From the NCBI GenBank assembly GCA_030692765.1, contig JAUYUB010000011.1, positions 1-64,000 of the forward strand: DNA of 64,000 nucleotides, in the 5' to 3' direction. The notes beneath the pieces are model-generated. The model saw only the letters and a program-made list of their open reading frames with translations, ran no database searches and was not told the origin of the DNA. The stretch is from Sulfuricurvum sp. (GTDB lineage Bacteria; Campylobacterota; Campylobacteria; Campylobacterales; Sulfurimonadaceae). How positions within the stretch are numbered: the first letter of the stretch is position 1; every line of letters begins with the position of its first letter. Below, piece after piece: positions 28,406 to 31,330 of the stretch. The position numbers and the translations under genes were made by a program.

Positions 28406-29752
28406 GTGAATATGAGACAGATGCAATCGATCGAATTAGATGGGTTGAGTGTAGACGATAAGCGCAGTGAAATACGTCGTTATTTTCATCAAGGCTTTGA
28501 TCTTTTTGAATCGCTGTTTGAGCTTTTTAAATCGGATACTGTTTTTTATGAACAGCCGGAACCGACACGTCATCCGATGATTTTTTATTTTGGGCATACG
28601 GCTGTTTTCTATATTAATAAACTTGTTTTATTCGGAGTATTAAGCGAAGGAATTGATCCCCGTTTTGAAGCGCTTTTCGCAGTGGGTGTGGATGAGATGG
28701 TCTGGGATAATATGAACGAGCGTTTCGAGGGGTTTGGTGTTGATACGGTCCGCCAATACCGTAAAGCGGTTCGCTCTTGCGTGGATGAGCTTATAACTCA
28801 ACTGCCGCTTACTCTCTCCATCACACAGGAAGACTCTTTTTGGGCGATACTCATGGGGTGTGAACATGAGCGTATACATATTGAAACTTCCAGCGTTTTA
28901 CATCGTCAGCTGCCTCTTGAATTGGTTAAAAACCATGCTGATTTCCCATTGTGCCCATTAAGCGGTGAGGGGCTTGAAAACTCGATGGTGGCAATTGGAG
29001 GCAAAACAGTTACGTTGGGTAAAGGCATGAAAGACCATGGACTCTACGGATGGGATAACGAGTATGGAACCGCTACGTATGAAGTAGATGATTTTGAAGC
29101 ATCGCTTTACTTGGTAAGCAACGGAGAATATCTGGATTTTGTCAATGCAAACGGGTATAAAATACAACGCTGGTGGGACGAAGAGGGGATAAAATACTTA
29201 TCGATTCGCAACACTGTATGCCCGCCATTTTGGATACCTAAAGAAGATGGTAGTTTCGCCTATCGTTCTCTAGCGCAGGAGATAGCCATGCCTTACGATT
29301 GGCCCGTAGAGGTGAATGCTCTCGAAGCACAGGCTTTTTGTCGATGGAAAAGTGCTCAAGACGGGGTAAGTTACCGTCTTCCGACAGAAGCCGAATACGG
29401 CGTTCTTTTGGATGAGTGCGGTATCGTGAGTGATATTTTTGATGATACTACGGCAAATCTTAATCTTGCCCATTTTGCTTCATCGGTTCCCATCAATACG
29501 TTTTTTCACGGTAAAGTATACGATGCGGTAGGCAATGTTTGGCAATGGACCAGTACTCCTATGGATGGGTTTGAAGGATTCGCACCACATCCATTGTACG
29601 ATGATTTCTCAACGCCTACTTTTGATACAAAACATAATATTCTCAAGGGAGGATCTTGGATCTCAACGGGAAATGAGATAGTGAGGGCTTCACGCTATGC
29701 GTTTAGACGCCATTTTATCCAGCATGCCGGATTTCGTTATGTGGCCGATTGA
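28406..29752 (+). CDS. ovoA: 5-Histidylcysteine sulfoxide synthase (OvoA N-terminal type, no methyltransferase domain)
   Basis: 448 residues. The N-terminal DinB-like domain carries a probable three-His iron site (H64 in FGHT, H154 and H158 in CEHERIHIETS). The C-terminal FGE-sulfatase domain has YGWDNEYG, VGNVWQWT and KGGSWISTGNE. HERIHIETSSVL and the ending RRHFIQHAGFRYV match OvoA rather than EgtB. OvoA joins Cys sulfur to C5 of histidine with O2. Full OvoA proteins have a further methyltransferase domain of some 250 residues; this one stops before it. Start GTG 28406 with GAGGAA upstream. The ovoB-like gene follows with TGATG overlap. Confidence 0.85.
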   Translation: MNMRQMQSIELDGLSVDDKRSEIRRYFHQGFDLFESLFELFKSDTVFYEQPEPTRHPMIFYFGHTAVFYINKLVLFGVLSEGIDPRFEALFAVGVDEMVWDNMNERFEGFGVDTVRQYRKAVRSCVDELITQLPLTLSITQEDSFWAILMGCEHERIHIETSSVLHRQLPLELVKNHADFPLCPLSGEGLENSMVAIGGKTVTLGKGMKDHGLYGWDNEYGTATYEVDDFEASLYLVSNGEYLDFVNANGYKIQRWWDEEGIKYLSIRNTVCPPFWIPKEDGSFAYRSLAQEIAMPYDWPVEVNALEAQAFCRWKSAQDGVSYRLPTEAEYGVLLDECGIVSDIFDDTTANLNLAHFASSVPINTFFHGKVYDAVGNVWQWTSTPMDGFEGFAPHPLYDDFSTPTFDTKHNILKGGSWISTGNEIVRASRYAFRRHFIQHAGFRYVAD

Positions 29753-30927
29753 TGGGTGACTTTGATTTTATAGACAGATCGGTAAGCAATGCTGAAAAGC
29801 ACACCCTTAAAGAAAAACTTTTTGGCACACAAGAAGTGCTTCCGATGTGGGTCGCGGATATGGATATCGCCACACCTTCGTGTGTTTTAGAGGCAGTACG
29901 TCATCGACTGGAACATCCGATTATCGGGTATGAGATTATGAGCAAGACTGCGTATGAAGCGCAGTGTGATTGGGTAGAACGTCATCATGGATGGAAAATA
30001 AGTACAGAGTGGTTAAGCTATTCTCCTTCCGTTGTAGCATCGATTGGGTGTGCTATTCGAGCGTTTAGCGATGAGGGGGATGAAATTATCGTACAAAGTC
30101 CTGTCTATCCGCCATTTTATGACATGGTCCGCAGCAATAATCGCAAATTGCTACTTAATGCGCTTATGCAAGATGCTCAGGGAGAATATCGCTTCGATTT
30201 GGAAGATTTAAAGGCCAAAATCACCCCTAAAACAAAACTCTTATTACTGTGCTCTCCGCATAATCCTGTAGGACGCGTTTGGCGAAGAGAAGAATTGATC
30301 GCACTTGGAGAGCTGTGTGTTCAAAACGGTATTGTCATCATTAGCGATGAGGTACATTGTGATATTGTTTTTAGTGAAAGTACCCATATCCCATTGGCGT
30401 CGCTATCACCAATATTGAGTGAGAATACGGTGACGTTGATGGGTCCAGGTAAAACGTTTAATATGGCCGGATTTTCGATCTCTACGGTGGTTATTGCATC
30501 GTCGCAATTGCGTGAGCGCTACCGCAAAGAGCAGCATAAAGTTCATTATGGAGATGGTGCCGTATTGTCGCATGTGGCTTTTGAGGCAGCATATAGCCAA
30601 GGGGATGTATGGTATCAAAATTTAATGAATCATTTGAGTACCAATAGAGCGATGATTGAACAATGGTGTATTGCCCATCCTGTCATCGGATTTCGAAAGC
30701 CTCAAGGTACGTATTTGGCATGGTTGGATTGTCGTGCCTTGAAGATGGGTGACCGAGAGTTACGGGACTTTTTTGTCAAAGAGGCAGGCTTGGGTCTGAG
30801 TGCCGGTCTTAGTTTCGGAAAAGAGGGATCGGGATACATGCGTCTGAATTTTGCAGTTGCACGCGAAGTATTACAGCAGGCATTACGGCAACTTTCTGAG
30901 GCTCTAGTGAGAAACGGTTATGGATGA
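29752..30927 (+). CDS. ovoB: OvoB/MalY-type PLP C-S lyase
   Basis: 391 residues of the MalY/PatB cystathionine beta-lyase-like family (LPMWVADMDIATP, CSPHNPVGRVW, ISDEVHCDIV, MGPGKTFNMAG with the PLP Lys). Directly after and overlapping the OvoA-type gene, it is best read as OvoB, which splits 5-histidylcysteine sulfoxide to 5-thiohistidine. By sequence alone it could be a general beta-C-S lyase. I start at ATG 29752, which shares bases with the upstream stop. Confidence 0.8.
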   Translation: MGDFDFIDRSVSNAEKHTLKEKLFGTQEVLPMWVADMDIATPSCVLEAVRHRLEHPIIGYEIMSKTAYEAQCDWVERHHGWKISTEWLSYSPSVVASIGCAIRAFSDEGDEIIVQSPVYPPFYDMVRSNNRKLLLNALMQDAQGEYRFDLEDLKAKITPKTKLLLLCSPHNPVGRVWRREELIALGELCVQNGIVIISDEVHCDIVFSESTHIPLASLSPILSENTVTLMGPGKTFNMAGFSISTVVIASSQLRERYRKEQHKVHYGDGAVLSHVAFEAAYSQGDVWYQNLMNHLSTNRAMIEQWCIAHPVIGFRKPQGTYLAWLDCRALKMGDRELRDFFVKEAGLGLSAGLSFGKEGSGYMRLNFAVAREVLQQALRQLSEALVRNGYG

Positions 30928-31330
30928 AAAGATAAGGAAATTTATTTCCAAGCATCATCTGCTCTCTTTGGCAACATTTGGAGAGTCGTTGTGGTGCTGT
31001 TCGGCCTTTTATGCTTTTGATATAGATACAGCTACTTTTATTATCGCATCGGATGAACAAACCCATCATATTCAAAATATTAAAAAGAACCTGCGTGTAG
31101 CGGGTACTGTTTCGCAAGAGACAAAGGTGGTTGGAAAGATACAGGGGATACAGTTTACGGGAGAGATAAGGCGTGTCACGGATGAGAAAGAGCATGCGCT
31201 ATATCTGGATAGATTCCCGTATGCAAGGGCGATGAATCCGACATTGTGGAAGATTGAACTTGAGACGATCAAAATGACCGATAATACGTTGGGCTTTGGA
31301 AAAAAACTTATTTGGAATCGGGAAATTTAG
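30920..31330 (+). CDS. Pyridoxamine-phosphate-oxidase-like flavin-barrel protein (YhbP-like)
   Basis: 136 residues with the split-barrel FMN-binding fold (LLSLATFGESLWCCSAFYAF, TATFIIASDEQTHHIQNI, GIQFTGEIRRV). It resembles the YhbP/UPF0306 group, whose function is unknown. It overlaps the ovoB-like gene by 8 bp, so it belongs to the same operon. A role in redox handling of the thiol product is only a guess from context. Confidence 0.7.
   Translation: MDEKIRKFISKHHLLSLATFGESLWCCSAFYAFDIDTATFIIASDEQTHHIQNIKKNLRVAGTVSQETKVVGKIQGIQFTGEIRRVTDEKEHALYLDRFPYARAMNPTLWKIELETIKMTDNTLGFGKKLIWNREI

Follow-up and report, generated by a model that had tools for sequence, protein, structure and literature searches.

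The window analysed here, a 64,000-nucleotide stretch of DNA from the sulfur-oxidising bacterium Sulfuricurvum, carries an operon whose OvoA-type sulfoxide synthase is without its methyltransferase domain, while the same genome encodes a putative free-standing 5-thiohistidine methyltransferase, OvoM, on another contig. We read these genes as a split pathway composed of OvoA, OvoB and an unlinked OvoM and, judging by sequence, its product is very probably ovothiol A. In the proposed scheme OvoA, as a synthase module only, would use O2 and non-haem iron to join cysteine to C5 of histidine, giving histidyl-cysteine sulfoxide; OvoB would cleave the sulfoxide to 5-thiohistidine; and OvoM, acting in trans, would methylate 5-thiohistidine at N-pi with SAM to yield ovothiol A. 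That OvoA, OvoB and the methyltransferase domain catalyse these three reactions is established (PMC12631010). The assignment of the steps to the window genes and OvoM follows family and identity, and we infer the enzyme activities as well as the action of OvoM on the OvoA/OvoB product. Glutathione synthesis genes gave no match in this genome with PF04262 or TIGR01380, which leaves the ovo thiol as a possible main thiol of low molecular weight in this organism. The genes of the proposed pathway, together with the third gene of the operon, are:

28406–29752, plus strand: ovoA, comprising just the N-terminal module (5-histidylcysteine sulfoxide synthase), by TIGR04344, Pfam and PDB match
29749–30927, plus strand: ovoB-type PLP C-S lyase (PatB/MalY family), by TIGR04350, PDB and adjacency to ovoA
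30920–31330, plus strand: YhbP-like split-barrel (PNPOx_N) protein, 136 aa, by PF01243 and the YhbP model, overlapping the ovoB stop
Contig 1, about 81278–82033 (L006:7279–8034), minus strand: OvoM, stand-alone TIGR04345 methyltransferase, 251 aa, by TIGR04345 and PDB

A free-standing OvoM in the same genome

The sequence-only reading of the window had envisaged either a cell that makes unmethylated 5-thiohistidine as its thiol or one that methylates it with an unlinked enzyme, and had proposed a whole-genome search for the methyltransferase family. This search, with TIGR04345 (cut-off 170 bits), speaks for the unlinked enzyme and against the unmethylated end product: on the minus strand of contig 1, at 81284–82009, lies a stand-alone match of 321 bits that spans positions 1–242, the complete model, in an open frame of 252 aa without internal stop. 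Four further matches in the genome reach at most 31 bits, the level of ordinary methyltransferases. An hmmscan of the OvoM protein agrees with TIGR04345 and brings no other family near its cut-off. The top PDB match is the '5-thiohistidine N-methyltransferase OvoM' of 9bxl/9bxm/9bxn (413 bits; 178 of 248 residues, or 72%, identical to 9bxl), the second is the fused OvoA 8khq and the third is OvsM, 9bxh. The contig 1 gene is thus a putative OvoM/OvoC-type 5-thiohistidine N-methyltransferase, with predicted N-pi methylation. The gene is flanked on one side by an ADP-ribosylglycohydrolase gene (Pfam PF03747), whose end its ATG overlaps, and on the other by dnaX. Since most other OvoM-bearing Sulfuricurvum genomes have the gene at the same dnaX-linked site, which is syntenic across the genus, we rejected contamination as its source.

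The arrangement is already known in the genus from solved OvoM structures. The sequence of 9bxl, which we identified by its PDB molecule name and by sequence identity, matches the OvoM of the Sulfuricurvum MAG STA_16 (L079; genome G092, contig 2) at every one of 247 aligned residues, and the OvoA of this MAG is likewise truncated. The two genomes share the operon of truncated OvoA, OvoB and YhbP-like protein and the unlinked OvoM; in the MAG, however, OvoM is beside neither dnaX nor an ADP-ribosylglycohydrolase gene, and OvoA carries a 26-residue tail. The window is therefore another case of a split already represented, and adds little in itself. OvsA and OvsM (8u41, 9bxh) are also a separate synthase and methyltransferase of related sequence, but the similarity is much lower (48.5 bits to OvsA, 227 bits to OvsM).

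A cell that stops at unmethylated 5-thiohistidine would fit the absence of a methyltransferase domain from the window's OvoA, and also the ten of 25 Sulfuricurvum genomes that combine a truncated OvoA with no OvoM-type enzyme, on account of which methylation seems dispensable in the genus. With a full-length, apparently intact OvoM encoded in the same genome, however, this outcome is very improbable here. There is likewise little chance that most 5-thiohistidine goes to some other derivative, for instance an N-acetylated one as made by 5THNAT of Proteiniphilum, with OvoM serving a minor branch. 5THNAT does compete with methylation elsewhere, and OvoA is truncated in some 5THNAT genomes (PMC12631010), but we recognised no acetyltransferase by eye beside the window's ovoA or at the loci of OvoM-less relatives; none was seen by ovoA at two Labilibaculum loci either. 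The 5THNAT-linked OvoA of Bacteroidota (PMC12631010) resembles that of the window in having no methyltransferase module, and differs in its partner, an acetyltransferase there and OvoM here. Against the preferred pathway to ovothiol A stand the lack of linkage between OvoM and ovoA and the phylogeny of OvoM, which differs from that of OvoA in these genomes and makes the OvoA–OvoM partnership look secondary.

The genes of the window

The ovoA frame starts with GTG, encodes 448 aa and ends with a TGA at 29750–29752, directly after the FGE domain; the Pfam domains are DinB_2 (residues 27–161) and FGE-sulfatase (192–446). H64, H154 and H158, which we take to be the iron (metal) ligands of OvoA, are invariant in all 69 OvoA-N sequences, and Y431, presumably the position of the active-site (catalytic) tyrosine, is conserved in 67 of them. 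The protein scores 612.3 bits against TIGR04344, the NCBIfam model of the OvoA N-terminus (cut-off 400 bits), over nearly all of its 444 positions, and its top PDB match is the fused OvoA 8khq (502 bits, residues 17–446 aligned). The fused proteins, found in most of the Sulfurimonadaceae sampled, have the same synthase module with the same ligands and adjoin OvoB in many Campylobacterota, but their methyltransferase is a C-terminal domain in a single chain of about 700 aa. In the window's OvoA this domain (TIGR04345) is absent, the frame ending at residue 448, and the profile search found no match on the window's contig, which agrees with the earlier description of a 448-residue OvoA-type protein that ends in its FGE domain with no methyltransferase nearby. 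Of the 24 other Sulfuricurvum genomes in the sample, 20 likewise have a truncated OvoA followed by OvoB, which rules out a sequencing error as the cause of the truncation. By its domains, the window's OvoA is a predicted sulfoxide synthase module without the methyltransferase domain of the bifunctional enzyme.

An EgtB or SenA homologue of the ergothioneine/selenoneine pathway misread as OvoA, an affiliation that the sequence-only reading had marked for checking, would share the DinB_2 and FGE architecture and would fit the EgtB-IV structures as second-best PDB matches (322 bits), but it is a very improbable reading, given that the OvoA model scores 612 bits against 152.5 for EgtB (cut-off 360) and 148 for SenA (cut-off 420; both NCBIfam, both far under cut-off), that the PDB match to OvoA reaches 502 bits, and that our tree, which holds no EgtB or SenA rows, places the protein among the family's OvoA modules, most of which are fused to the C-terminal domain of ovoA.

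The other two genes are also borne out as a MalY/OvoB-type PLP lyase overlapping ovoA and a split-barrel flavin-type protein overlapping the lyase gene. The lyase could start within the ovoA stop overlap, at a TTG (29749) or at an ATG (29752, in TGATG); the ATG may be the true start. TIGR04350 (PatB C-S lyase) gives it 545 bits against a cut-off of 340, PatB, MalY and cystalysin are its PDB matches, and it adjoins ovoA in all 24 of the other Sulfuricurvum loci examined. The second gene is an OvoB-type C-S lyase, with predicted activity on the sulfoxide. The third gene matches PF01243 (PNPOx_N) at 38 bits, above the Pfam cut-off, and the NCBIfam YhbP model at 150 bits, short of the 176 that its cut-off demands; a search of the PDB by sequence found no solved homologue. 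The YhbP-like gene is a conserved neighbour: of the 89 family genomes with both genes, 70 have it no more than 8 kb from ovoA. It occurs also in genomes without detected OvoA, and the role that the sequence-only reading suggested for it, protecting or reducing the product, is hypothetical. Three Sulfuricurvum genomes have a DUF4010 gene between ovoB and the YhbP-like gene (L038:644–1933, L041:5722–6996, L042:2097–3371; Pfam match shown for L041).

Distribution of split and fused OvoA

Our family sample consisted of 101 genomes, of which 25, the window genome included, are Sulfuricurvum. An OvoA-N match above cut-off is present in 93 of the 101; in a sample of the phylum, OvoA was found in only 11 of 121 genomes. 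Comparison of domain layouts, as the earlier reading had suggested, showed mostly fused chains of about 700 aa in the family and a truncated OvoA in 21 of the 25 Sulfuricurvum genomes. Eleven of the 25 have the split OvoA with a separate OvoM. Ten have a truncated OvoA and no OvoM-type methyltransferase (G014, G045, G051, G057, G062, G067, G084, G090, G098 and G100; loci L031, L034, L035, L036, L037, L038, L046, L049, L053 and L054), TIGR04345 finding in them only generic methyltransferase matches of 20–28 bits. Seven of these ten genomes are 97–100% complete, and G051 is 100% complete in two contigs. OvoA and OvoB of G090 form one 795-aa frame, perhaps through an error of assembly or sequencing.

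The other four Sulfuricurvum genomes (G037, G088, G094 and G096) have a fused OvoA whose C-terminal domain is shortened to about 200 residues and scores 103–122 bits, under the cut-off. Similar domains occur in other genera (G017, G018, G040, G139). The loci, from Sulfuricurvum and other genera together, are:

L033:2834–4768, L048:2931–4868, L051:3895–5826, L052:3925–5862, L135:2878–4758, L065, L066, L067: fused OvoA with shortened methyltransferase domain

An OvoC/OvoM alignment of 57 sequences has 59 near-invariant columns. Judged by these, the shortened domains retain the SAM-binding motif, but most of the C-terminal stretch SPYTW...ETARKFQH is gone: beyond residue 177, 28 of 147 cells are conserved, versus 132 of 266 before it. 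The shortened domains of the four Sulfuricurvum genomes are probably degenerate.

Two loci outside these groups hold related genes. One genome of the Campylobacterota without detected OvoA (G153) has an OvoC-type fragment whose match is interrupted by a stop codon (L136:3047–3370), a probable remnant, and an Arcobacter OvoM-type gene (L102:4004–4747), with no OvoA in the roughly 4 kb of sequence covered, is possibly another split arrangement.

Evolutionary history of the split

In the OvoA tree Sulfuricurvum forms one clade (100/100), within which the truncated proteins (97/93) lie beside the clade of shortened domains (99/93); the genus groups closest with genus g5 (join 85/87). The separate OvoMs also form one clade (SH-aLRT 94), which adjoins the fused domains of genus g7, in a quick tree of moderate support (SH-aLRT 93–94 at the key forks). 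OvoM is unlikely to have arisen by simply splitting off from the OvoA of its own species, as OvoM groups with g7 and OvoA with g5 (moderate support). In most OvoM genomes OvoM and its tightly linked ADP-ribosylglycohydrolase gene sit side by side in the interval that separates dnaX from the genes that follow; in the other genomes this site has neither. In G029 the two are one 613-aa frame. The loci are:

L006:7279–9110, L055–L064: OvoM-linked ADP-ribosylglycohydrolase loci

The grouping of OvoM with the fused domain of another genus suggests, as far as these moderately supported gene trees go, that the domain was lost or eroded and that a two-gene cassette was then acquired. We tentatively propose for the genus as a whole that methylation was lost or eroded, that some lineages regained it through OvoM, and that about ten of the 25 sampled species, running OvoA and OvoB with no OvoM-type enzyme, rely for their thiol on 5-thiohistidine or on some unknown derivative, a scenario that is possible though somewhat short of an even chance. 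The ten OvoM-less Sulfuricurvum are candidates for a genuine 5-thiohistidine end product, and a series within one genus, in which the fused domain is shortened in some members, missing from others and replaced by a separate enzyme in the rest, could show what N-methylation contributes to 5-thiohistidine. It is this genus-wide pattern that is worth following.

In genera g7, g8 and g14 the neighbourhood of ovoA includes an ADP-ribosylglycohydrolase of a different subfamily, beside the YhbP-like gene. At three fused-OvoA loci ovoB is followed by a sirtuin-like gene (Sir2-type, by motif; L103:4501–5232, L083:5982–6716, L087:3738–4469), and beyond it lies an ADP-ribosylglycohydrolase-like gene.
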